Part shown: positions 35,101-52,325 of the stretch, piece by piece
Layout of the letters: each line of letters starts with the position of its first letter
How positions within the stretch are numbered: the first letter of the stretch is position 1
Assembly (NCBI RefSeq): GCF_947492535.1
Contig: NZ_CANLNH010000012.1
Span: forward strand, 1 to 64,000
DNA length: 64,000 nt
Origin: an uncultured Dokdonia sp.
Lineage (GTDB): Bacteria; Bacteroidota; Bacteroidia; Flavobacteriales; Flavobacteriaceae
Reading direction: 5' to 3'
Notes under the pieces: model-generated
The model's database searches: none
Seen by the model: the letters and a program-made list of their open reading frames with translations, nothing else
What the model was told of the DNA's origin: nothing
Translations under genes and position numbers: made by a program

Positions 35101-36849
35101 ATGAAGAGACTATTACTCTTTTTTATTCTTAGCGCACAATACCTATTTGGACAGGTTGAATTTAGAAATGATGAGTCTGCACTCTTCAACCAAGAAACTG
35201 TATATGGTGTAAGCGTATTAGGTCCTAGTATTTCTTTCTTTGATTTTGATCAAGATGGATGGGATGATATCACGATACCTGCATCAAATTTACATGACTT
35301 TCAATTTTTCAAAAATGTAAATGGTAATTTTCAAGCTATAGATCTAGGAATAACAAGCAATGCTATTCAAGCGAGACATGCTATATGGGTAGATATAGAT
35401 AATGACGGAGATCATGATTTTTTTGCCACGAGTGACCTTGGATATTTATGGCTTTATAGAAACGATGGAGATAATACATTTGTTAATATAACTGACACAT
35501 CGGGATTACCTGATATTGATATTCCATACTGGGGCTCTTCTTGGGGAGACTACAACAATGATGGTATTTTAGATGTCTTTATAAGCATACGTGATGCTGA
35601 TCTATTACAAGGTAATTTATTGTATCAAGGGAATGGAGATGGCACATTTATAGACACCACAACAAGTGCCGGAATAGATCCAGCAGGATATATTACATTT
35701 TGCTCCTCTTTTTTTGATTATGATAATGATGGAGATCAAGATATTTACACCGCTAATGATAAATGTATCACGCCTAATACGCTGTATATGAATAATGGTG
35801 ATGGCACATTTACAGACGTAAGTATCGAAAGTGGTACAGATTTATATATGAGTGCAATGTCTACGACCATCGATGACTTTAATAATGATGGTTGGTTAGA
35901 TATTTATATAACTAATTTTTACCCGCCTTTTGAAGAAGATGTTACTGTAGGCAATGCCTATTTGCTTAATAATGGTGATGGTACATTCACCAATATAGCT
36001 TTAGAAAACGGAACTCGCTTTGACAGTATAGGATGGGGTGCGGTATGTATAGATGCGTTAAATAATACGTATAAAGATGTATATGTAAGTGGTAGTGTAA
36101 ATGGTGCAGACGGGAGACTTTCTTCAGCACTCTATCTTAACGATGGTCTAGGCAATTACACTATATCTACAAATACAGGCATTGAAGAAGATAGTTTTAT
36201 AAGTTATTCAAATGCAATAGGAGATATTCAGAACGATGGTCTACAGGACATTGTAGTCATTAATGCAGATAACGACCCCATTTCACTATGGAATAACACG
36301 TCTACTACAGATAATAATTGGTTAAAAATAACATTAGAAGGCACCACAAGTAATAAAATGGGGATTGGTTCAAAAATAAAGGTAGGTATAGAAGACAATG
36401 TATATTATGGATATACATTATGTGGAGAAGGATATATGAATCAGAATAGCAATGCAGAATTTTTTGGTCTGGGTGACGCAACAACCGTCGATTATATTGA
36501 AGTTACTTGGTTAAGCGGCATGATAGACCGTATTGAAGATATAGATGCTAATCAAACAATCAATATTATAGAAGGCTCCAATCCTTTAGATACTGAATCT
36601 TTTAATATCTCTAATTTTGATATCTACCCCAATCCTACATCAGATACTTTTAACATCACTTACAGTGGTAGTGAACAATCAATAAACATCTACATTATTG
36701 ATATACAAGGCAAAATTATAAAAGAAAAAAGATTTGAGACCACCAGTCAAGAAAAGTATATTGACGTTTCTGATGTCGTCCCTGGCATTTATTTCATGTC
36801 CGTTTTTGAAGGAGACAAAAAAACTGTTAGAAAAATAGTAGTTCAATAA
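35101..36849 (+). CDS. Secreted FG-GAP/ASPIC (CRTAC1-like) protein with type IX tail, copy A
   Basis: A 582-residue secreted protein. A signal peptide (LLLFFILSAQYLFGQ) is followed by a seven-bladed propeller of FG-GAP/VCBS repeats bearing calcium loops such as DFDQDGWDD, DIDNDGDHDFF and DYNNDGILDVF. The ASPIC/UnbV domain (GSKIKVGIEDNVYYGYTLCGEGY) follows. The C-terminal type IX secretion tail starts near DIYPNPTSDTFNIT and ends KKTVRKIVVQ. It is the first of two tandem copies; a third lies at 58649-60403. Likely a surface or released protein; ligand unknown. Confidence 0.9.
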   Translation: MKRLLLFFILSAQYLFGQVEFRNDESALFNQETVYGVSVLGPSISFFDFDQDGWDDITIPASNLHDFQFFKNVNGNFQAIDLGITSNAIQARHAIWVDIDNDGDHDFFATSDLGYLWLYRNDGDNTFVNITDTSGLPDIDIPYWGSSWGDYNNDGILDVFISIRDADLLQGNLLYQGNGDGTFIDTTTSAGIDPAGYITFCSSFFDYDNDGDQDIYTANDKCITPNTLYMNNGDGTFTDVSIESGTDLYMSAMSTTIDDFNNDGWLDIYITNFYPPFEEDVTVGNAYLLNNGDGTFTNIALENGTRFDSIGWGAVCIDALNNTYKDVYVSGSVNGADGRLSSALYLNDGLGNYTISTNTGIEEDSFISYSNAIGDIQNDGLQDIVVINADNDPISLWNNTSTTDNNWLKITLEGTTSNKMGIGSKIKVGIEDNVYYGYTLCGEGYMNQNSNAEFFGLGDATTVDYIEVTWLSGMIDRIEDIDANQTINIIEGSNPLDTESFNISNFDIYPNPTSDTFNITYSGSEQSINIYIIDIQGKIIKEKRFETTSQEKYIDVSDVVPGIYFMSVFEGDKKTVRKIVVQ

Positions 36850-37026: not shown

Positions 37027-38781
37027 ATGAAGAGATTATTACTCTTTCTTATTCTTAGTGTACAATACCTATTTGGGCAGGTTGAATTTAGAAATGATGA
37101 ATCTGTACTCTTTGACCAAGAGACTATCTATGGCACAAGTGTACTAGGACCAAGTATTTCTTTCTTTGATTTCGACAAAGATGGATGGGACGATATCACA
37201 ATGCCTGCATCAGCGATTAATGATTTTCAGTTTTTTAAAAATGTAAATGGCAATTTTCAAGCTATAGATTTAGGGATAACAAGCAATAATATTCAAGCCA
37301 GAAATGCCATTTGGGTAGATATAGATAACGATGGAGATAACGATTTTTTTGCTACGAGCGATCTTGGGTACTTATGGCTTTATAGAAATGAAGGGAACAA
37401 TATATTTACCAATGTGACAAGTTCTTCAGGATTACCAGATACAGATACAAATATTCCTTATTGGGGATCGTCATGGGGAGATTATAATAATGATGGTTTT
37501 TTAGATCTTTTTATTAGTGTGCGAGATTTTGATCAAGAATATGGAAACCTTCTTTTTCGCAATAATGGAAACGGAACGTTTATAGACGTTACAGAAAGTG
37601 CAGGGATACCACTTCAAGGACAAATATCTTTTTGTTCAGCATTTTTTGATTATAACAACGATGGACATCAAGATATTTATATTGCAAATGACAAGGAGAT
37701 AAGCCCCAATTCCCTCTACAGGAATAATGGTAATGGAACATTCACCGATGTTAGTCTTGTATCTGGCACAAATCTGATTATGAGCGCAATGTCTACTACA
37801 ATAGACGACTACAATAATGATGGCTGGTTAGATATTTATGTAACTAATCTTTTTCCTCCATTTTTTGAGGATGCTACTGCTGGGAATGCATTTTTAGTAA
37901 ATAACGGCGATGGTACATTTACTAATATCGCCTTAGAAAACGGAACTCGTTTCGAGAGCATAGGGTGGGGAGCTGTTTTTCTAGATGCATTAAACAATAG
38001 TCACAAAGATTTATATGTAAGTGCTAGTGCTTCAGGAGAAACAGGAATTTTATCTTCTGCTCTATACTTAAATGATGGTCAAGGAATTTATAGTATATCT
38101 ACAAATACAGGTATCGAAGATGATCAGTTTATTAGCTATTCAAATGCAATAGGAGATATTCAGAACGATGGATTACAAGACATTGTAGTCATCAATGCAA
38201 ACAATGAACCTATATCTTTATGGAATAATACATCTACTACAGATAATAATTGGCTTAAAGTAACATTAGAAGGCACCACAAGTAATAAAATGGGGATTGG
38301 TTCAAAAATAAAAGTAGGTGTAGGAGACCATGTATATTATGGGTATACATTATGTGGAGAAGGATATATGAATCAGAATAGCAATGCAGAGTTTTTCGGT
38401 CTGGGTGACGCAACAACCGTCGATTATATCGAAGTCACTTGGTTAAGCGGCATGATAGATCATATTGAAAACATCGATAGCAATCAAACAATCAATATTA
38501 TTGAAGGGTCTCACCCTTTACGTCTTGATGAATTTACGATTAATGACATTACACTCTATCCAAACCCAGCAACAAATGCTATTCATTTTACACATCCAGA
38601 AAACCAACAAGAAATAGCTATTTCTATTATAGATATACAAGGAAAAGTGATTAAAAAACAACATTTTGACAGCACAATTCAGGAACAAACCATCAACATC
38701 TCTGACATCGCTAGCGGCATTTACTTTATATCCATAGACGATACACAAAAAACTGTTATCAAAAAAATTGTCATTTTATAA
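37027..38781 (+). CDS. Secreted FG-GAP/ASPIC (CRTAC1-like) protein with type IX tail, copy B
   Basis: A 584-residue paralogue of copy A with the same order: signal peptide, FG-GAP/VCBS propeller, ASPIC/UnbV domain, type IX tail (TLYPNPATNAIHFT to TVIKKIVIL). The sequence upstream of the start (tactttgagatactaaa) is also duplicated. Similarity to copy A is uneven. The ASPIC region is almost identical at the DNA level, while propeller segments and tails differ much more. The gene immediately precedes recQ, as the ancestral copy presumably did. Confidence 0.9.
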   Translation: MKRLLLFLILSVQYLFGQVEFRNDESVLFDQETIYGTSVLGPSISFFDFDKDGWDDITMPASAINDFQFFKNVNGNFQAIDLGITSNNIQARNAIWVDIDNDGDNDFFATSDLGYLWLYRNEGNNIFTNVTSSSGLPDTDTNIPYWGSSWGDYNNDGFLDLFISVRDFDQEYGNLLFRNNGNGTFIDVTESAGIPLQGQISFCSAFFDYNNDGHQDIYIANDKEISPNSLYRNNGNGTFTDVSLVSGTNLIMSAMSTTIDDYNNDGWLDIYVTNLFPPFFEDATAGNAFLVNNGDGTFTNIALENGTRFESIGWGAVFLDALNNSHKDLYVSASASGETGILSSALYLNDGQGIYSISTNTGIEDDQFISYSNAIGDIQNDGLQDIVVINANNEPISLWNNTSTTDNNWLKVTLEGTTSNKMGIGSKIKVGVGDHVYYGYTLCGEGYMNQNSNAEFFGLGDATTVDYIEVTWLSGMIDHIENIDSNQTINIIEGSHPLRLDEFTINDITLYPNPATNAIHFTHPENQQEIAISIIDIQGKVIKKQHFDSTIQEQTINISDIASGIYFISIDDTQKTVIKKIVIL

Positions 38782-41081: not shown

Positions 41082-41744
41082 TTGAAAACGCTAACTAAGT
41101 ATTGGTTTTTAGAAGAATTTAATCTCTTCAGAAAATTAGGCATTGTCACGATGATGTCCATTTGTGAAATTCTGGAAATGGATTATATTAATAAAGGTTC
41201 AGTTATTAACCTCCAAAGTGTAGACAAAAAATGTATTTTCTTCCTAAAAAAAGGGGTTGTAAAAATTGTAGACAAGAATACACATACGGTAAAATATGTG
41301 GCAAAACGCGGTAATATATTTGGAGAACTTTCCTTATATGATGAAGAAATGGCGTCTGAAGAAGTTGCATATGCACTTGAAGACTGTGTGATTTGTTATA
41401 TAGAATCAGAACGAATGGAAGCACTAATGCAAAAACACAAATCACTTAAAAATGGTGTTTTGAAGATATATGGCACACGTATAAAACGCTTAGAACGCAA
41501 ATTACACGATCTTTTATATAAGGATAGTCATGTAAGAATTAAAGAGTTTATAGCAGACTATGTAAGTGAGTTCGGGACTCCAAATGAAGAAGGAAATCTA
41601 GTGGCAAAAAACCTACTCACCCATAAAGATATTGCTGGACTTACCAATACATCACGACAAACGGTAAGTAATGTATTGAGTTCAATGCGTAAAGATGGAG
41701 ATATTCAATATGACACAAAATTTATTACTAAACTTGAAAAATAA
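41082..41744 (+). CDS. Crp/Fnr-family transcriptional regulator
   Basis: A 220-residue regulator with an N-terminal cyclic-nucleotide-binding-type fold (KKCIFFLKKGVVKIVDK, GNIFGELSLYDEE). A C-terminal Crp-type helix-turn-helix (LTHKDIAGLTNTSRQTVSNVLSSMRKDG) follows. The start appears to be TTG, as no ATG lies before the conserved region. No clustered cysteines of Fnr type are seen. It is on the same strand as the Rieske operon a few kilobases downstream and could control it, but this is untested. Confidence 0.88.
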   Translation: MKTLTKYWFLEEFNLFRKLGIVTMMSICEILEMDYINKGSVINLQSVDKKCIFFLKKGVVKIVDKNTHTVKYVAKRGNIFGELSLYDEEMASEEVAYALEDCVICYIESERMEALMQKHKSLKNGVLKIYGTRIKRLERKLHDLLYKDSHVRIKEFIADYVSEFGTPNEEGNLVAKNLLTHKDIAGLTNTSRQTVSNVLSSMRKDGDIQYDTKFITKLEK

Positions 41745-42367: not shown

Positions 42368-45300
42368 ATGAACTCTAAAAACCATATTTACAAAGTATTC
42401 TTTGTTCTTATACTTTGTATAACATCGTATTCGTATGGACAAGAAAAAGAAGTCTCTATATACATTACCGGAAACACAAATACAACAGAAGGAATAAATA
42501 CGTTACGCACTATTATTGAAGATGCACCTGAAGATTCTAAACTACTTTTATTAGGAAATGCAACTCCCGAAACTGGATTTAATGACAATGCAACTTCTAT
42601 AGTAGATGATCAACTTAATATTGTTTCTTCTTTAAAAAAGAATGTCATCTTTACATCTGGACATAATGAATGGGAATATAATGGTTACAAAGGAGTAAAG
42701 GCTTTTGAAAAGTACATCCAAAAAAACAGCGATGCTAAATTTTATCCAGACAAAGGATGCCCTATCAAAAAAACAAACCTTACTGATAATGCAATCCTTA
42801 TCACTATAGACTCTCAATGGTATCTTGAAGATTGGGACAAACAGACCTATCTCAATGAAGATTGCGATATCAAAAATAGAAATGATTTCTTTTTAGAGTT
42901 TGAAAGCATCTTAAAAAAAGCGCAAACTAAGACAAAAATCATTGCCATTCATCACCCTATGTTATCCTTATCTAAAACGAGTTTTTTTGCAAGAACGGGA
43001 GGGTTTTCTCAGGAAGATTTTCAACATACACAATATAGAAGCTTACGTAATAGACTTCTCACCATAGCACAAGAAAACGAAAAAATAGTATTTGTATCAG
43101 GTAGTGACAAGAATCTACAATACATAAATGATTTTGGAGTTCCACAAATTATAAGTGGAGCAGCTGGTGATACGAAAGGAGTACAAAAAGCAGCTAAAGG
43201 AAGTAATGATTTCACTTCAAGTGAAAAAGGATACGCACGTCTTGATATACATTCGGATGGTAGCTTATCTGTACATTTCAAAAATAAAAATAGCGTACTA
43301 TTTACGACAACACTTTTTGAAGATACAAAACAGACAAACACTATCTCTTTCGAACCTAAAGACTCCTACCCAGAAACCAAAAAATCTGCTGTGTATGCTA
43401 GTGAAGAAACTGAGAAAAGCAAACTCTACAAAGGGCTTTGGGGAAAACGCTATCGCGAATTTTATAGTAAAGAAGTTGAAGCTCCCGTTGCATTTATAGA
43501 CACCCTACTAGGAGGACTTACTCCTGTAAGACGCGGTGGTGGACACCAATCTAAATCACTACGACTAGAAGACAAGGATGGTAAGCAATATGTGATGCGT
43601 GCCTTACGTAAAAGTGCCACCAAGTTCTTACAAGCAACTGCTTTTAAAGAAACCTATGTAGAAGAAGAGCTTGAAGGCAGTTTTGCAGATCGTTTTGTGT
43701 TAGATTTTTATACCGCAGCACACCCGTACACTGCTACAACAATAGGAGATTTGGCAGATGCTGCAAAGGTATATCATACCAATCCTAATTTATATTACAT
43801 TCCTAAACAAGAAGCTTTAGGAGAATACAATGATGAATATGGTGACGAATTATATTTACTAGAAGAACGTGTAGAATCTGGACATAAAGATGCCAAAAGC
43901 TTTGGATATCCTGAAGATATTGTAAGTACGGCAGACGTACTTCAAGAAATTCATAAAAATGGCAAATCTGCTGTAGATGAGCCTTCTTATATCAGAGCCC
44001 GTTTATTTGATATGCTTATTGGAGATTGGGATCGACATGAAGATCAATGGAGATGGGCCGTATATAAAGAAAATGGCAAAAAAATATACAAACCTATTCC
44101 TAGAGATAGAGATCAAGCCTTCTCTGTATTTGATGGAAGTATTTTTGGATTTTTACGTGTAGCAGTACCTGCTTTACGAATGATGCAATCTTTTGACGAC
44201 GAACTCAAAAGTCCAAGATGGTTTAGCTTTGAACCCTACCCTTTAGACGAATCATTTATTAATACATCAGATTGGGCAGCTTGGGAAAAAGAAGCTAAAT
44301 ATATTCAAGATAACGTTACAGACGATGTCATTGCAAAAGCCTTTGAAAATCTACCTGAAGAAATGAAGGGAGAAACTATAGAAGAAATCAAATCAAAATT
44401 AAAAGGAAGACGTGGCAATATCTTAACTATTGCAAAATCATATTTTGACTATGTAAATAAGCATGCTGTATTAATTGGAACTCAAAAAAGTGATGTTTTT
44501 AATATAGAAAGACTTCCTAATGGGCAAACACGCGTGGAGATTATGCGTAAAGACAACGGTCTTTTTGAACGAACCTATAATGCATCAGAAACAAAAGAAA
44601 TTTGGATATACGGTCTCGAAGGGAAAGACACATTTAATGTTACAGGAGAAGGAAATGATCTTATTAAGATTAAAGTAATCGGTGGTAAGAAAAATGACAC
44701 CTATGATTTTAAAAACACTAAAAAGGTTAAGATATACGATTATAAAAATAAAGAGAATACTATCGTTAATAAACGATCAAAAAAATGGCTAGTAGATGAT
44801 TATGAAATCAATAATTATGATTACAAAAAAAGAAAAGAAAACGTAAATCAATTCCTGCCTATTATTGGAGCTAATCCTGATGACGGTCTTAGAATAGGGT
44901 TTACAAATACATTTACCACGCATGGTTTACAAAGCAATCCGTTTACAACAAAACACATTATAGCTGCTTCTTTTTATTCAGGAAACTCAGGGTATGACGT
45001 GAGTTATCAAGGAGAATTTGCAAACATATTTCACAATTGGAACTTTGGTATCCAATTTAAATACAACAGTCCTAATTTTGCTCAAAATTTCTTTGGATTT
45101 GGTAATGACACAACATATGATAGAGACGAAGTAGAGTTAGATTTTAACCGGGTACGTATACGTCAATTACGAGGTGCTGTATCTTTAATAAGAAGAGGAA
45201 ACAATGGAGGATACTTCGAAATCAAACCCCTCATAGAATCTTTTGAAGTAGAAAACACCGCAGAGCGTTTTATTGTTACAGAAAATATAGGAGGTGTAAA

Positions 45301-45913
45301 CGCTCTTACTTTTGAAAATCAAACCTATGCAGGAGGTGAAGTCTCTTATGGTTTTAAAAATAAAGACAATGTTGCTTTCCCTACCTATGGTCTAGACACA
45401 GAAATCACTGCTGGGTATAAAGCAAATATTGACGGAGGAAATAGTGACAATAAATTTGGGTATGTAGAATCTCATTTTGCGTTTGATTATAAGATTTCTA
45501 AAAGTGGCAACTTAGTCTTTGCTACAAAAATAGGAGGCGAAGCCATTCTTGGTGATAATTTTGAATTCTTCCACGGAGCTACTTTAGGAGGTAATCATAG
45601 TTTACGAGGATTTAGAAATGAGCGCTTTATTGGAAAGTATGCTTTTTATCAAAACACAGATCTACGATTAAAACTAGGAAAATTCAAAAGCAGCTTCATT
45701 CCTTTAAACTACGGTATTACAGGTGGATTTGATTACGGAAGAGTATGGGAAGGTAACGAAGCCTCTGCTATCATTAATGAATCTAACACCCTAAATACAA
45801 GTGTTGGAGGATCTTTCTGGATCAGTGGACTTGACGCATTTACAGCAAATGTAGGCTATTATGGAAGTAATGATGGCGGACGTGCGGTATTCGTACTCGG
45901 ATTTGCATTTTAA
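42368..45913 (+). CDS. Outer-membrane protein: phosphoesterase-like, secretory-kinase-like and barrel domains fused
   Basis: An 1181-residue protein with a signal peptide ending YSYGQ. Residues 28-310 resemble a calcineurin-like phosphoesterase, but the usual metal ligands look altered (LLLLGNATPETG, TSGHNEWEYNG, SGSDKNLQYI in place of GD, GNHD and GHDH), while IAIHHPML is kept. Residues about 380-700 show the marks of a secretory protein kinase of FAM20/CotH type. These are a glycine-rich GGGHQSKSLRL, lysine in YVMRALRK, catalytic-loop-like LIGDWDRHEDQWRW and metal-loop-like PIPRDRDQAF. From about residue 830 strands of a BamA/surface-antigen-type barrel follow, ending VFVLGFAF. Only 36 bases separate it from the Rieske operon. 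Confidence 0.75.
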   Translation: MNSKNHIYKVFFVLILCITSYSYGQEKEVSIYITGNTNTTEGINTLRTIIEDAPEDSKLLLLGNATPETGFNDNATSIVDDQLNIVSSLKKNVIFTSGHNEWEYNGYKGVKAFEKYIQKNSDAKFYPDKGCPIKKTNLTDNAILITIDSQWYLEDWDKQTYLNEDCDIKNRNDFFLEFESILKKAQTKTKIIAIHHPMLSLSKTSFFARTGGFSQEDFQHTQYRSLRNRLLTIAQENEKIVFVSGSDKNLQYINDFGVPQIISGAAGDTKGVQKAAKGSNDFTSSEKGYARLDIHSDGSLSVHFKNKNSVLFTTTLFEDTKQTNTISFEPKDSYPETKKSAVYASEETEKSKLYKGLWGKRYREFYSKEVEAPVAFIDTLLGGLTPVRRGGGHQSKSLRLEDKDGKQYVMRALRKSATKFLQATAFKETYVEEELEGSFADRFVLDFYTAAHPYTATTIGDLADAAKVYHTNPNLYYIPKQEALGEYNDEYGDELYLLEERVESGHKDAKSFGYPEDIVSTADVLQEIHKNGKSAVDEPSYIRARLFDMLIGDWDRHEDQWRWAVYKENGKKIYKPIPRDRDQAFSVFDGSIFGFLRVAVPALRMMQSFDDELKSPRWFSFEPYPLDESFINTSDWAAWEKEAKYIQDNVTDDVIAKAFENLPEEMKGETIEEIKSKLKGRRGNILTIAKSYFDYVNKHAVLIGTQKSDVFNIERLPNGQTRVEIMRKDNGLFERTYNASETKEIWIYGLEGKDTFNVTGEGNDLIKIKVIGGKKNDTYDFKNTKKVKIYDYKNKENTIVNKRSKKWLVDDYEINNYDYKKRKENVNQFLPIIGANPDDGLRIGFTNTFTTHGLQSNPFTTKHIIAASFYSGNSGYDVSYQGEFANIFHNWNFGIQFKYNSPNFAQNFFGFGNDTTYDRDEVELDFNRVRIRQLRGAVSLIRRGNNGGYFEIKPLIESFEVENTAERFIVTENIGGVNALTFENQTYAGGEVSYGFKNKDNVAFPTYGLDTEITAGYKANIDGGNSDNKFGYVESHFAFDYKISKSGNLVFATKIGGEAILGDNFEFFHGATLGGNHSLRGFRNERFIGKYAFYQNTDLRLKLGKFKSSFIPLNYGITGGFDYGRVWEGNEASAIINESNTLNTSVGGSFWISGLDAFTANVGYYGSNDGGRAVFVLGFAF

Positions 45914-45949: not shown

Positions 45950-47557
45950 ATGAAAAAACCAATTTCAATTGCAAAAGTATCCCAATTAAAAAATAAAGAG
46001 CCTGAGCATGCGCTCGTAAACGGACTCGATTTAGTGATTGTAAAATTTGATGATGATATTTCAGTACTATACGGTCGTTGTCTACACAGAGGCGCCTTAA
46101 TGTCTGATGGATATGTAGATGGACATAACCTCATCTGCGGTGTTCATGGCTGGGATTATCGTGTAGATTCGGGAGTGTCAGAATATAATAACAAAGAGGT
46201 TTTACATAAATTCTCCACAAAAATTGAAGGAGATGATTTACTTGTAGATGAATTTGAAATAGATACCTACCTAGTAAATCATCCGCAACCTTTTAACCGT
46301 GATCAATACTTAGGCGCTTATGCAGACACGCATCCTGAAGAAACCGAACCGTATACCAACTATATAAAAGAACTGGCTCAAAATGGATTGAAAAATATTG
46401 GGCATCACGGGTTTTCTGCATCCATGGGTGTCGATAGAAATACCCTTCCAAAATGGAATGACATTCAGTTTTTACCAGCGCAATTGGCATCACGTCCTTT
46501 GCTGGATGAAGATGCGGTTGCGACCAAAGTCGTGATTGGTAAAAAAGCAAAAAAACCACTGCATTTAGACATCCCATTGTTTGTAAGTGATATGAGTTTT
46601 GGCGCTTTATCACGTGAAGCAAAAATTGCGTTATCCAAAGGGGCTGAACTTGCAGGCACAGGAATTTGTTCTGGAGAAGGAGGTATGCTTCCTGAAGAGC
46701 AAGCCAATAATTCTAAATATTTTTATGAACTCGCTTCCGCGAAATTTGGATTTACCTGGGACAAGCTAGATAACGTCCAGGCATTTCACTTTAAAGGTGG
46801 TCAAGGAGCAAAAACAGGAACAGGAGGTCATCTTCCAGGCGCCAAAGTAAGTAAAGAAATTGCAGAAGTACGTGGTCTTAATGAAGGCGAAACAGCTATT
46901 TCTCCAGCAACTTTTCCAGATTTTCATGGCGTAGAAGATTTTAAAGCCTTTGCTGCCGAAGTAAGAGAACGTACAGGGGGAATTCCTATTGGTTTTAAAC
47001 TCGCTGCCAGTCATATAGAAAAAGACATTCAGTTTGCACTTGATGTAGGGGTAGATTATATCATACTTGATGGTCGCGGTGGCGGGACAGGATCTGCACC
47101 AACTATCTTAAGAGATCATATCAATGTCCCTACGATACCTGCTTTGGCTAGAGCCCGAAAATACTTAGATAAAGTAGGTGCTACCGATGTGACATTAATC
47201 ATTACAGGAGGATTGCGCGTTGCCGAAGATTTCGCGAAAGCGTTAATGTTAGGAGCAGATGCAATAGCCGTATCCAACTCGGCATTACAAGCCATAGGAT
47301 GCTTAGGAATGCGTGCCTGTGGGAGTAATAACTGTCCTGTTGGAATTGCCACTCAAAAAGAGTCCTTACGGAGTCGTTTAATTATTGATAGTTCTGCCAA
47401 ACAACTACATAATTACTTTGATGCTACAAACAACTTGATCAAAGTAGTCGCAAGAGCATGCGGATATGATGATATCAGCAAATTTAATCACGACGATCTA
47501 TCCACATTTAACAAAGATATGCACAAACTAACAGGAATCAACTATGCCGGAATATAA
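45950..47557 (+). CDS. Rieske domain fused to glutamate-synthase-like FMN/3Fe-4S domain
   Basis: A 535-residue protein. Residues 1-105 are a Rieske [2Fe-2S] domain (GRCLHRGALMSDG and ICGVHGWDY, the CxH and CxxH pairs). From about residue 150 it follows the FMN-binding domain of glutamate synthase: GHHGFSASMG, IPLFVSDMSFGALS, FKGGQGAKTGTGGHLPG and DYIILDGRGGGTGSAP. The 3Fe-4S ligands are kept in CLGMRACGSNNCPVGIATQ (C-X5-C-X4-C). The glutaminase and C-terminal helix domains are absent, so ammonia is not supplied from glutamine. The palindrome encodes FAKA. It is the first gene of the Rieske operon. Confidence 0.88.
   Translation: MKKPISIAKVSQLKNKEPEHALVNGLDLVIVKFDDDISVLYGRCLHRGALMSDGYVDGHNLICGVHGWDYRVDSGVSEYNNKEVLHKFSTKIEGDDLLVDEFEIDTYLVNHPQPFNRDQYLGAYADTHPEETEPYTNYIKELAQNGLKNIGHHGFSASMGVDRNTLPKWNDIQFLPAQLASRPLLDEDAVATKVVIGKKAKKPLHLDIPLFVSDMSFGALSREAKIALSKGAELAGTGICSGEGGMLPEEQANNSKYFYELASAKFGFTWDKLDNVQAFHFKGGQGAKTGTGGHLPGAKVSKEIAEVRGLNEGETAISPATFPDFHGVEDFKAFAAEVRERTGGIPIGFKLAASHIEKDIQFALDVGVDYIILDGRGGGTGSAPTILRDHINVPTIPALARARKYLDKVGATDVTLIITGGLRVAEDFAKALMLGADAIAVSNSALQAIGCLGMRACGSNNCPVGIATQKESLRSRLIIDSSAKQLHNYFDATNNLIKVVARACGYDDISKFNHDDLSTFNKDMHKLTGINYAGI
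47230..47242. repeat. Partial iterated palindrome (inside the glutamate-synthase-like gene)
   Basis: TTTCGCGAAAGCG: right arm complete, left arm degraded to GAT. Read as Phe-Ala-Lys-Ala. Confidence 0.8.
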
Positions 47558-48302
47558 ATCAATGAAAGATCAATTACATCTTGCGTCGCAGTATTTAGCT
47601 GCCGCAAACATGAGTTTTTTAGAGAAAAAAGCAGATGATAGTCATACCAATGTTGGTTTTGATTTAAAAACCAAGCGCATGGAAACTTATGACTTATCGC
47701 CTTCTGGAGATCGATTATCATTAAATTATAGAACATTTTCTTTAGAATGGGTATCTCAAAATAATATCGATTCGCTTTCGCTTGATGGAAAAACACATGG
47801 AGAAGTGCTTAAATGGTTACAAGAACAATCCCAAACACATCTTGCTAAAAAATATAGTTATGAATTTCATTATGAGTTACCATATACTATAGCTAGCGAC
47901 TATCAATTTAAACGTACAGACATTAGTCAACTAGAGCATTTATGCAACTTAAGAATTCTTGCAGAATACACCTTAGAAAGTATTGTTGAAACAAATCATT
48001 TGGATTCACCTATACGTATATGGCCACATCATTTTGATACAGGAGCCTATGCTCCATTAGGAGATACAGGCATTTCTGTTGGCATAGGAATGGCCATCCC
48101 AGATACACTTTCTGATGTGCATTATTTTTATATCAGCGGGTATAAAGATGGGAAAGCAATTCTTCCTTCTTCTCAAAGTGATTTGCGTCTTGGAAAATGG
48201 ATGCAAGAAGGTTTTACGGGTGCTATACTCCCAGTTACAAATCTAGTAGAATCTGAAGCGATTCAGTTTTTTCAAGAAACTATAGATCAGTATAAGAACT
48301 AA
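47544..48302 (+). CDS. Conserved hypothetical protein with WPHHFD motif
   Basis: A 252-residue soluble protein overlapping the preceding gene by 14 bases; ATG 47562 would avoid the overlap. It carries RIWPHHFDTGAYAPLGDTG, whose paired histidines and aspartate could bind a metal, and a late KWMQEGFTGAILPV segment. The WPHHFD motif reminds me of DUF5996-type proteins, with low certainty. Tight coupling to the Rieske-FMN gene suggests a shared pathway. Confidence 0.7.
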   Translation: MPEYKSMKDQLHLASQYLAAANMSFLEKKADDSHTNVGFDLKTKRMETYDLSPSGDRLSLNYRTFSLEWVSQNNIDSLSLDGKTHGEVLKWLQEQSQTHLAKKYSYEFHYELPYTIASDYQFKRTDISQLEHLCNLRILAEYTLESIVETNHLDSPIRIWPHHFDTGAYAPLGDTGISVGIGMAIPDTLSDVHYFYISGYKDGKAILPSSQSDLRLGKWMQEGFTGAILPVTNLVESEAIQFFQETIDQYKN

Positions 48303-48714: not shown

Positions 48715-50664
48715 ATGGCTACAACTAAAAAATGGTATAAAGTTCTCGAAAACAAAAACGTATTACCCGAAGGGCGTGTCCAAACAGTAACCGCTGGTCA
48801 TCAGGGAGTTTGTTTGACACATTATGACGGGAAGTTTTCTGCTTTAGATAATAAATGCCCCCATCAAGGAGGACCGCTTGGAGAAGGATCTATTGAAAAT
48901 GGGATGTTACGTTGTCCATGGCATGGTTGGGATTTTCATCCTTGTACAGGATTACCTCCAGGAGGTTATGACGATGGGATAAAAACATTTGAAGTAAAAG
49001 AAGAAGGTGATGTCATTTTTGTAGCCGTTGAAGAAGAAGACACACACCAAGACACCATCTCTGATGTGATGATAGAAACTATGATCAATTGGGGTGTAGA
49101 TACTGGTTTTGGTATGGTAGGTCATTCTAATCTTGGTGTAGCCGATGCCATGATGCGACAAGAAGAAAAAGGGAAATTTCAATTCTTTGGAATTCGTCAT
49201 GAAGGTGCCGCTGCTTTTGCAGCCTCTGCTTATGGAAAACTAATGGGCAAACCTGCTGTTTGTTTCGGAATTGCAGGTCCTGGTGCTACTAATATGTTTA
49301 CCGGAATGTGGGATGCCAAAGTAGACCGCGCTCCCCTATTTGCCATTTCTGGACAAATTAACACACAAGTGTTAGGCACAGGCGCTTTTCAGGAAGTAGA
49401 CCTTGTAGGTGCTTTCCAAACCGTAGCGCATTTCAACCATAGTGTACAACAAAACTCTCAACATAGCGAGTTAATGAGTCTTGCTATAAAAAGCGCCTTG
49501 CTAAATAGAGATGTATCACATATCACCTTCCCAGATGAAGTAGCTTTTATGCCAAAACCCGAAGGTGAAGAAGCACAAACTCCAGAGGGTAGAATCACAC
49601 CTATGAATATTTCGCCGCCAAGGCAAATGGTAGCAAAGGCTGTAACCATGCTCGCTGCTTCAAAAAAACCTGCGATCATTGTAGGTCATGGAGCGCGTTT
49701 TCATATGGAAGCCATTACCGCTTTCGCGAAAGCGTTACACTGCCCAGTCATTACTACATTTAAAGGAAAAGGTCTTATTGCCGACTCACACGAATTAGGA
49801 TGTGGGGTATTAGGAAGAAGTGGGACTCCGATTGCTTCTTGGTTTATGAATGAAAGTGATTTATTACTCGTATTTGGAGCTTCATTCTCTAACCATACAG
49901 GAATCACTCCTAAAAAACCAATCATTCAAGTAGATTATGACCCAACTGCCTTAAGTAAATTCCATAAGGTAGATGCGGCCCTTTGGGGAGAAATCTCTGA
50001 AACACTTACCATACTTGAAGAAGAAACTAAAGGAAAATTAAATACTCTAGACAGACGTCCAGAAATCGCCGAACGTTGGGCAATCTGGAGAGAAGAAAAA
50101 ACAAGTCGATTAAAAGATGAAAGCGAAATAGGACTAAGTTCTATTGCCGTATTTGATGCGATGAACCAAGTCGTTCCTGATGACGCTGTCATTGCCGTAG
50201 ATGTAGGAAACAACACCTATTCTTTTGGACGTTATTTTGAACCTACAAATCAATCTGTTTTAATGTCTGGATATCTAGGGTCTATAGGATTCTCTCTACC
50301 TGCAGCTATGGGTGCATGGGCAGCACAAGGAAAAGAAAGACCTATTTGGTCTATCTCTGGAGATGGAGGTTTTGGTCAATATCTTGGTGAGATGATGACC
50401 CTTGTTAAGTACAATATGAATATCAAACACGTACTCCTTAACAACTCAGAATTAGGTAAAATTTCTAAAGAGCAGAAAGCAGCAGAATTAGATGTTTGGA
50501 AAACATCACTACACAATGTGAGCTTTGCCAAATATGCTGAAAACTGTGGTGCTTTAGGAATTAGAGTGACCAAAAGAGAAGAACTACTTCCTGCACTAGA
50601 AAAACTGAAAGCACATAAGGGACCTGCTTTATTAGAAATCATTACAGATCCAAGTTTAATATAA
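48715..50664 (+). CDS. Rieske domain fused to a thiamine-diphosphate enzyme (acetolactate synthase/pyruvate oxidase-like)
   Basis: A 649-residue cytosolic protein. Residues 1-105 are a Rieske domain (NKCPHQGGPLGEG and CPWHGWDF). The remaining 540 residues follow the three-domain ThDP enzyme plan. The activating glutamate is in FFGIRHEGAAAFAASAYG, the central domain starts near KKPAIIVGHGARF, and the cofactor motif is SGDGGFGQYLGEMMTLV with LLNN following. Such enzymes act on 2-oxo acids; the fused iron-sulfur domain suggests that electrons from substrate oxidation leave through the Rieske centre. The palindrome encodes TAFAKA in the middle domain. Substrate unknown. Confidence 0.88.
   Translation: MATTKKWYKVLENKNVLPEGRVQTVTAGHQGVCLTHYDGKFSALDNKCPHQGGPLGEGSIENGMLRCPWHGWDFHPCTGLPPGGYDDGIKTFEVKEEGDVIFVAVEEEDTHQDTISDVMIETMINWGVDTGFGMVGHSNLGVADAMMRQEEKGKFQFFGIRHEGAAAFAASAYGKLMGKPAVCFGIAGPGATNMFTGMWDAKVDRAPLFAISGQINTQVLGTGAFQEVDLVGAFQTVAHFNHSVQQNSQHSELMSLAIKSALLNRDVSHITFPDEVAFMPKPEGEEAQTPEGRITPMNISPPRQMVAKAVTMLAASKKPAIIVGHGARFHMEAITAFAKALHCPVITTFKGKGLIADSHELGCGVLGRSGTPIASWFMNESDLLLVFGASFSNHTGITPKKPIIQVDYDPTALSKFHKVDAALWGEISETLTILEEETKGKLNTLDRRPEIAERWAIWREEKTSRLKDESEIGLSSIAVFDAMNQVVPDDAVIAVDVGNNTYSFGRYFEPTNQSVLMSGYLGSIGFSLPAAMGAWAAQGKERPIWSISGDGGFGQYLGEMMTLVKYNMNIKHVLLNNSELGKISKEQKAAELDVWKTSLHNVSFAKYAENCGALGIRVTKREELLPALEKLKAHKGPALLEIITDPSLI
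49730..49743. repeat. Iterated palindrome copy (inside the Rieske-ThDP gene)
   Basis: Perfect core with matching outer C/G, read as Ala-Phe-Ala-Lys-Ala. Confidence 0.95.
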
Positions 50665-50887: not shown

Positions 50888-51303
50888 CTTCAGGATTACG
50901 AAAAGCCCATAAGGTGATTTGGATGGTGTTAGGCATCTTAGGAGTTGTGCTCATTATAGCATCCATCAACAGTGTAAAAGAACCATTAGGCATCGATAGT
51001 GACACCTCTATTTCTTCAACAAAAAAGAACGTTCGTACTATTGAGGAAAATGCGCAGTTGTCTGTAAATGTAGAAGAACTAGCGAATATCAACAAACTAC
51101 ATATTGTCATAAAAAAACCTCTAAAAAGTGCTGCGACGGGCGTCTATGTACTAACGAATGATCAAGAAAGAGGTGCTTTTTTAGGAAGCATAGACAACAA
51201 AGGGTTGTATACGTTTACTATTGAAAAAACAGCAAAAAAAATTCAATTGTACGATGGAATAAAAAAGAGTGTCATCCGTAATATCGATCTATCATGGGAG
51301 TAA
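50884..51303 (+). CDS. Single-pass membrane-anchored small protein of the Rieske operon
   Basis: The track starts in another gene at 50794; the true start is ATG 50884 (MTSGLRKAHKVIWMVLG), overlapping the previous stop. The 139-residue product has one N-terminal helix and a short periplasmic beta domain (KLHIVIKKPLKSAATGVYVL, ERGAFLGSIDNKGLYTF). It overlaps the next gene by ten bases. No cofactor ligands are visible. Function unknown. Confidence 0.7.
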   Translation: MTSGLRKAHKVIWMVLGILGVVLIIASINSVKEPLGIDSDTSISSTKKNVRTIEENAQLSVNVEELANINKLHIVIKKPLKSAATGVYVLTNDQERGAFLGSIDNKGLYTFTIEKTAKKIQLYDGIKKSVIRNIDLSWE

Positions 51304-52325
51304 ATTATCAACCTGTGCTTTGGAATAAGCATAAGAAAACATATGACAAATGGATTGCAATAGGGATGCTTCTATACCTCATCAGTTTTATAGGAATCAC
51401 CATTATCACCAATGGAGAAACAAGCCCTGAAACACTTATCATTAGAGCTTTTGGAACCTTAGCTATTATTTTATTACATATCATATTATGCATTGGCCCT
51501 TTGGTTAGGTTAAACCCTAGATTATTACCTATCTTATACAACAGAAGGCATTTAGGCGTAAGCATGTTTATTGCCGCACTAATTCATGGCGGATTCTCGC
51601 TCTTTCAATTTCATGCGCTAGGGAATGTAAATCCTATATATGCCTTATTTACGTCAAATATGGAGTATACCTCTTTGGCTAATTTTCCTTTTCAAGTATT
51701 AGGCTTTTTTGCGCTGGTTATTTTATTTCTAATGGCTGCGACTAGTCATGATTTTTGGCTTAAAAACCTCTCTCCAAAAACATGGAAGCGATTACATATG
51801 CTCGTGTATGTAGCATACATCTTAATTATTCTTCACGTATTTTTAGGCGCATTTCAACAACAACCATCTATCGCTGTGATTGCCTTTTTAGGAGTAGGGT
51901 TCTTAACAATCTCCTCTTTACACATCACCACTGCTTTTAAAGAAGCTAAGACAGATAATATCAAAACAACACAAAAAGAAGAAGGTTGGGAATATGTATG
52001 TGAAATAGATGAAATATCTGAAAACAGAGCAAAGATTTTTGTAGTAGGAAGTGAGCGTGTTGCTATTTTTAAATACGATCATAAACTATCTGCAATTTCA
52101 AATGTATGTAAACACCAAGGAGGCCCTTTAGGAGAAGGCAAAATTGTAGACGGTTGTATTACGTGCCCCTGGCATGGATATCAGTATTTACCTCATAACG
52201 GGCAATCCCCTCCTCCGTTTACAGAGAAAGTAGCTACCTATCGTATAAAAAATAAGAATAATAGCATCTATATACTTCCAGAAGCAATGGCCGAAGGAAC
52301 CGAAATAGAACCTGTCACATTTTAA
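51294..52325 (+). CDS. Ferric-reductase-like haem membrane domain fused to a Rieske domain
   Basis: A 343-residue protein. The first 225 residues hold six or so helices with histidines suited to two haem b groups (LLHIILCIGPL, ALIHGGFSLF, RLHMLVYVAYILIILHVFLG), as in ferric reductase or MsrQ-type domains. Residues 230-343 are a Rieske domain (SNVCKHQGGPLGEG, CPWHGYQYLPHNG) very like that of the ThDP fusion. It should carry electrons across or into the membrane and exchange them through the cytosolic Rieske domain. Orientation is inferred. Confidence 0.88.
   Translation: MGVNYQPVLWNKHKKTYDKWIAIGMLLYLISFIGITIITNGETSPETLIIRAFGTLAIILLHIILCIGPLVRLNPRLLPILYNRRHLGVSMFIAALIHGGFSLFQFHALGNVNPIYALFTSNMEYTSLANFPFQVLGFFALVILFLMAATSHDFWLKNLSPKTWKRLHMLVYVAYILIILHVFLGAFQQQPSIAVIAFLGVGFLTISSLHITTAFKEAKTDNIKTTQKEEGWEYVCEIDEISENRAKIFVVGSERVAIFKYDHKLSAISNVCKHQGGPLGEGKIVDGCITCPWHGYQYLPHNGQSPPPFTEKVATYRIKNKNNSIYILPEAMAEGTEIEPVTF

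Follow-up and report, generated by a model that had tools for sequence, protein, structure and literature searches.

Within the 64,000-nucleotide stretch analysed here (positions 1 to 64,000 of contig NZ_CANLNH010000012.1, assembly GCF_947492535.1, from an uncultured Dokdonia sp.; hereafter the window), the gene under study is a single, uninterrupted open reading frame at 42368-45913 on the forward strand, which begins with the ATG at 42368, ends with its stop codon at 45913 and encodes 1181 amino acids; the one frame read on the opposite strand is broken by stops throughout. From the N to the C terminus the protein comprises a signal peptide, a degenerate metallophosphoesterase (MPE) of the purple acid phosphatase type, a kinase-fold domain (referred to below as K), a beta linker and a 16-strand Omp85 barrel, as follows.

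42368..42442, + strand: signal peptide, residues 1-25, MNSKNHIYKVFFVLILCITSYSYGQ, read from the sequence, without a lipobox
42446..43327, + strand: degenerate MPE of the purple acid phosphatase type, residues 27-320, from the alignment with intact relatives
43379..44515, + strand: kinase-fold domain K, residues 338-716, from the AlphaFold2 model and Foldseek
43535..43549, + strand: residues 390-394, GGGHQ, a Gly-rich loop joining two strands, from conservation and DSSP of the model
43598..43612, + strand: R411 to K415, where the third strand ends, basic residues that are candidates for nucleotide binding, from conservation
44021..44056, + strand: catalytic loop GDWDRHEDQWRW, residues 552-563, with D553, D555, R556, H557 and Q560, from conservation and the CotH and CtkA profile alignments
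44093..44122, + strand: metal-site motif PIPRDRDQAF, residues 576-585, with D580 and D582, from conservation, aligned with CotH IPYDYDNTF
44516..44836, + strand: all-beta linker, residues 717-823, from DSSP of the full-length model
44837..45910, + strand: Omp85 barrel, residues 824-1181, with 16 strands, the LRGF loop-6 motif and a C-terminal Phe, from NCBIfam, DSSP and fold matches

The full-length model is confident (predicted local distance difference test, pLDDT, 90.3; predicted template-modelling score, pTM, 0.88), and Pfam reports on this protein only weak, sub-threshold matches, to Metallophos_C (residues 260-307, E 0.0011, below the cut-off) and to ShlB (1072-1131). Promoter and terminator scans returned no more matches than shuffled sequences did.

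The preliminary description of the gene, made from its letters alone, took the middle domain for a secretory kinase of the FAM20/CotH type, and the strings that it quoted are all present: GGGHQSKSLRL (390-400), YVMRALRK (408-415), GDWDRHEDQWRW (552-563) and PIPRDRDQAF (576-585). A middle domain unrelated in fold to kinases, the outcome that it named as contrary to its proposal, is not what emerged. The AlphaFold2 model of K, built on an alignment of 76 rows, has a pLDDT of 93.9 and a pTM of 0.92, and all 14 of its Foldseek matches in the PDB with E<=1e-3 have a kinase fold (PI4KIIalpha/beta, CotH, CtkA, Rio2, Rv3197/MSMEG_1954 and Gcn2). The top match is the lipid kinase PI4KIIalpha (4hnd, E 1.1e-4, 13% identity); the CotH structure 5jd9 (2.0e-4) is another of the 14, and HipA 2wiu appears at 1.6e-3. 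The motifs follow one another as in kinases, with a Gly-rich turn between the first strands, R411 and K415 closing the third strand, DWDRH..Q as the catalytic loop and DRD as the metal site. In 95 relatives, conservation reaches 94-100% at G390, G391, G392, Q394, R411, K415, D446, E499, D548, D553, W554, D555, R556, H557, Q560, D580, R581 and D582; by motif it is 94-99% for the Gly-rich loop, 99% each for R411 and K415, 96-100% for the catalytic loop and 99-100% for D580 and D582. Because of this conservation, the kinase-like motifs are, on sequence grounds, not a product of chance. Going by the alignment, R411/K415, which follow the Gly-rich loop (390-394), would bind the nucleotide, D555 would be the catalytic residue, and Q560 together with D580 and D582 would bind metal; D446 is placed in the helix after strand 3, and E499 in the strand that runs into the hinge.

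At the level of sequence, K falls in no curated Pfam or NCBIfam family, either as a single sequence or as a 76-member consensus, and scans of the 76 members returned scattered weak matches only. Neither the window protein nor the K consensus matches the CotH family PF08757, which is also absent from the families shown for the 76 members. A profile-profile comparison (hhalign) of K with 20 Bacteroidota CotH proteins nevertheless scored 44.7 (E 1.5e-4, 179 columns), compared with a mean of 17.6 for 100 column-shuffled K profiles (standard deviation 2.8, maximum 26.4), 17.0 for reversed columns and 11.6 to 19.0 for the phosphoesterase, barrel and linker profiles. This alignment pairs DWDRH with the CotH catalytic loop and PIPRDRDQAF with IPYDYDNTF. 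Against PDB sequences, the K profile matches CtkA best (E 0.021), with GNFDRHNGNW against GDWDRHxDQW. Since the CotH score stands above its shuffles and the HipA score lies inside its null, we regard K, from these profiles, as a distant relative of CotH that lies outside PF08757; membership of the HipA family was rejected, its profile score being no better than shuffles. The CotH half of the FAM20/CotH assignment is thus borne out by fold and profile comparison and the FAM20 half is not: the Fam20C profile (PF06702) has no match in the window protein and a weak one in 1 of the 76 members (E 7.9e-4), and the 50 fold matches shown for K do not include FAM20C.

The N-terminal domain presents the opposite picture. 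Aligned with intact relatives, the window MPE has GNTN for GDAG (D36N), GNATP for GDNIY (D64N, with the Tyr now a Pro), GHNE for GNHD (residues 99-101; N99H) and GSDK for GHEH (H246S, H248K), and only HHP (195-197) is retained. At least five metal ligands are thus gone, and in place of GD, GDN, GNH and GHxH the window copy has GN, GNA, GHN and GSDK. The loss of GD-, GNHD- and GHDH-type ligands had been correctly anticipated from the letters. Intact members match PF00149, the calcineurin-like phosphoesterase family (1.4e-11 for the paralogue L002, 4e-14 for the consensus), and the window protein does not; their profile has its closest solved relatives among purple acid phosphatases (human tartrate-resistant enzyme, 1war, E 5e-14). 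Judged from these residues, the window MPE is almost certainly dead as an enzyme of this type. The paralogue, in the same genome (G000:C6:57350-60925), has intact MPE motifs (GDAGG, GDNIY, GNHDW, HHP and GHEH) as well as intact kinase-type motifs.

Loss of the phosphatase site is not accompanied by loss of the K site. Among 176 aligned rows, 124 are MPE-intact and 22 MPE-degenerate, the latter representing 20 distinct proteins once a duplicate of the window protein and a truncated protein from a metagenome-assembled genome (L158) are set aside. All 20 retain R411, K415, D446, D553, D555, R556, H557, Q560, D580 and D582; likewise, none of the 124 MPE-intact proteins lacks any of these ten residues, and two differ at E499 only. 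Broken catalytic residues were found in three GDWSRR proteins (L059-L061) and in L070, none of which has a phosphoesterase. The GDWSRR proteins, which lack the catalytic Asp (L059:4737-6446, L060:4629-6248, L061:4626-6233), adjoin K genes with intact motifs in the opposite orientation, possibly as pseudokinase-kinase pairs.

In the K-domain tree the window protein lies in one Flavobacteriaceae clade of degenerate members (SH-aLRT branch support 90), and further MPE losses occur at L086/L087, L014, L151, L090 and L075. This makes about five or six independent losses, an inexact count because several degenerate members sit on long branches; within the window clade, L011 and L013 were labelled as having no MPE through a cut-off or truncation, and L011 is actually degenerate. 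In many degenerate members a G-x-N-E-W signature replaces GNHDW. Between the window protein and its relative L004, the ratio of non-synonymous to synonymous substitution (dN/dS) in the MPE is 0.06, indicating purifying selection, so the degenerate domain is not junk and is under constraint for a role other than metal catalysis. In the same pair dN is 0.012 for K, the slowest-evolving domain of the window clade, and 0.053 for the MPE (4.4-fold); in the intact pair L002/L020 MPE dN is about 1.2 times that of K.

That the C terminus is an outer-membrane barrel, as first proposed, is supported by an NCBIfam Omp85_fam match (E 1.8e-16, residues 996-1178, below that model's own cut-off), by 16 strands predicted at 824-1179 (DSSP of the full-length model) and by fold matches headed by BamA and TamA. 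LRGF (1079-1082), between strands 11 and 12, fits the Omp85 (V/L)RG(F/Y) loop-6 motif, and in Omp85 proteins this position is extracellular loop 6. Given 16 strands and this placement of LRGF, the N terminus, and with it K, would lie on the periplasmic side. In PlpD, the best-studied fusion of an enzyme to Omp85, the enzyme domain is kept in the periplasm (PMC11116518). The linker is all-beta and shows no POTRA-like helix/strand pattern in DSSP of the model; Omp85 proteins without POTRA were also described in a 2014 survey (PMC4104836). By a rough pattern match, the window clade lacks a lipoprotein Cys and many intact paralogues have one, with the consensus lipoprotein-type Cys-Ala-Thr.

The protein is no isolated case and belongs to a phylum-wide family. 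A homologue is present in 29 of 39 related genomes, and K was matched in 142 of 396 Bacteroidota genomes, about a third. K occurs as MPE-K-barrel proteins of ~1200-1300 amino acids, as K-barrel proteins of ~850-910, as K with a short tail, often lipoprotein-like, of ~520-570, and alone behind an N-terminal hydrophobic anchor (~423), and its catalytic set is retained across all of these architectures. Because of this variety, K is an independent exported module. The stand-alone domains (L053-L058) form a separate, well-supported branch with a long stem. Flavobacterium johnsoniae carries one family member (L157). The 80 best matches from named genomes are essentially all from Bacteroidota; a single record that bears the title Algicola groups with Flavobacteriaceae in the tree, and its title is probably a naming matter. 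All five plasmid records that matched are also from Bacteroidota, and 26 pattern matches in viral contigs included no relatives. A Parabacteroides K-barrel protein is annotated in its record as a hypothetical protein.

The gene order of the window clade (Crp/Fnr regulator, kinase-fold gene, Rieske-glutamate-synthase protein, 252-residue protein) is retained in relatives from Nonlabens and Maribacter. In the window the three neighbours are the following.

41082..41744, + strand: Crp/Fnr-type regulator, upstream, also adjacent to the gene in two further genera
45950..47557, + strand: protein with Rieske and glutamate-synthase domains, downstream, also adjacent to the gene in three further loci
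47544..48302, + strand: 252-residue protein without a Pfam family, downstream, kept in the same loci as the Rieske-glutamate-synthase gene

Genes of the intact type have other neighbours, namely an HD-PycTM protein (58 of 83 loci), an SdiA-regulated/phytase-like propeller lipoprotein (54 of 83) and a 790-residue protein (40 of 83), and K-barrel genes lie near PPK1 (4 of 14) and SixA-like phosphatases (4 of 14). The contexts of the intact-type genes suggest phosphate-related signalling. The HD-PycTM protein, which is Pycsar-effector-like, and the propeller lipoprotein recur beside intact genes across Bacteroidota in up to 68 loci (e.g. L168:2593-3786 and L154:8550-9398); a defence gene of the HD-PycTM kind would not be expected in so conserved a chromosomal setting. 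PPK1 is close to a K-barrel or MPE-K-barrel gene in several families (L066, L068, L078, L080 and L084), and in two genomes (G056:C15 and G107:C10) a few kilobases at most separate a K-barrel gene from a true CotH-family gene. Within the window itself, three Rieske fusions are clustered downstream (45950-47557, 48715-50664 and 51294-52325), one with a glutamate synthase domain, one with a thiamine-pyrophosphate enzyme and one in which Rieske follows a ferric-reductase-like membrane domain, in what looks like an unusual redox operon. The tandem FG-GAP/UnbV-ASPIC proteins at 35101-36849 and 37027-38781 carry type IX secretion sorting tails and are close mutual duplicates.

Taken together, we lean towards reading the window protein, from its motifs and models, as a phosphotransferase that is anchored in the outer membrane, faces the periplasm and belongs to an unnamed kinase family with a distant relationship to CotH. 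The Omp85 barrel would hold K and the MPE at the periplasmic surface of the outer membrane. There K would transfer phosphate, or some other group derived from a nucleotide, to a component of the envelope, for instance a secreted protein or one of the outer membrane. The phosphatase beside it would, in the ancestral form, remove or recycle this group; the window form would be a one-way version without an opposing phosphatase, the dead MPE being left as a binding or positioning module. More tentatively, the exported kinase-fold proteins found across the phylum, many of which share a single outer-membrane anchor with an opposing phosphatase, might constitute a system of reversible periplasmic phosphorylation, of which the window clade would be a kinase-only branch.

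Several points weigh against this phosphotransferase reading. The fold TM-scores are moderate (0.30-0.51 for PI4KII, CotH, CtkA and HipA), K has no match among the Pfam kinase families, the HipA (PF07804) comparison scored 20.2, inside its null (shuffled maximum 25.1), and the conserved gene neighbours name no substrate. Kinase-fold proteins can also be pseudokinases, or transfer AMP or glutamate rather than phosphate. ATP is not known to occur in the periplasm, which makes the phosphate donor a real problem; polyphosphate was considered as a possible donor, on the proximity of PPK1 to K genes in a few families.

Of the other readings, the one that survives best, though we think it rather unlikely, is that K has a kinase fold with another chemistry (AMPylation or glutamylation) or a lipid or glycan acceptor, as in SelO, SidJ and PI4KII. 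Families that combine a kinase fold with another chemistry are established, the protein is located at a membrane, and the top fold match is a lipid kinase; however, the catalytic-loop and metal motifs align with those of CotH, a protein kinase, and nothing specific to SelO or SidJ was seen, although no profile test was aimed at either. That neither the MPE nor K is catalytic, both serving as scaffolds of an Omp85 protein for assembly or transport, seems improbable. The N-terminal domains of Omp85 proteins are usually docking modules, and the selection acting on an almost certainly dead MPE would fit such a role, but a silent kinase domain would hardly retain every catalytic residue, as K does in all 20 MPE-degenerate members and in most of the K-only proteins that have no barrel. 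Surface exposure is known for many lipoproteins of Bacteroidota. Still, a kinase displayed outside the cell, the version first put forward for this gene, here pictured as moved through its own barrel like an autotransporter passenger, was rejected as the default on topology and is very improbable: such translocation was long assumed for patatin-Omp85 proteins (PMC11116518), but Omp85 topology puts the N-terminal domains in the periplasm, where the PlpD enzyme domain has been shown to reside (PMC11116518), and, the C terminus being the last barrel strand, there is no C-terminal domain of the type IX secretion system (T9SS).

If the phosphotransferase reading is true, the K family could supply the kinases responsible for phosphorylated secreted proteins in Bacteroidota, for example the tyrosine-phosphorylated gingipains, and would be a concrete candidate for that chemistry. 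A 2023 review of the T9SS gives the kinases for phosphorylated gingipains as unidentified (PMC10202324). A kinase-type enzyme facing the periplasm would also raise the question of where the phosphate comes from in a compartment not known to contain ATP. Enzymes for phosphate transfer are hardly known from the cell envelope. Since the phosphatase site has been lost repeatedly while the kinase-type site was retained, natural variants exist for telling apart the role of each half.

No description of K was found in the literature searched, a search whose coverage left out most subscription journals. The nearest described architecture is the Omp85 'Metallo' group of Heinz and Lithgow (2014), in which PF00149 stands N-terminal to an Omp85 barrel and no kinase is mentioned; that survey calls PF00149 a metalloprotease domain and gives a genus-level distribution (PMC4104836). 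Compared by description, the intact paralogue fits this architecture. In the window copy, by contrast, the PF00149 site is degenerate and by its residues not a working one, and K, a domain unmentioned in the 2014 description, is present in all the architectures found here, phylum-wide. The tartrate-resistant (purple) acid phosphatases resemble the intact MPE most closely, whereas the window copy is without nearly all of the metal ligands. PlpD likewise carries an enzyme domain N-terminal to a 16-strand Omp85 barrel (PMC11116518), but it is a lipase and has POTRA, whereas the window protein has kinase and phosphatase domains and an all-beta linker. A Riemerella phosphoesterase, judged by description, is probably unrelated to the barrel-anchored window protein because a review lists it as a T9SS effector. 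Among kinases, PI4KII is the best fold match of K, at 13% identity and without a match at the sequence level; HipA matches in fold, but its profile comparison falls within the shuffled range; and CtkA leads the PDB sequence matches of the K profile and ranks among the top fold matches too. CotH shares with K the kinase fold, as well as the catalytic loop and the DxD metal motif, which align in the profile comparison, and differs in the wording of the motif (GDWDRHxDQWRW in K) and in the fusion of K to a phosphatase and an Omp85 barrel; the genome of the window also encodes two separate true CotH proteins. On these comparisons of sequence and model, we rate K as a new family of putative atypical kinases in what would be an unusual compartment and in an unusual fusion.

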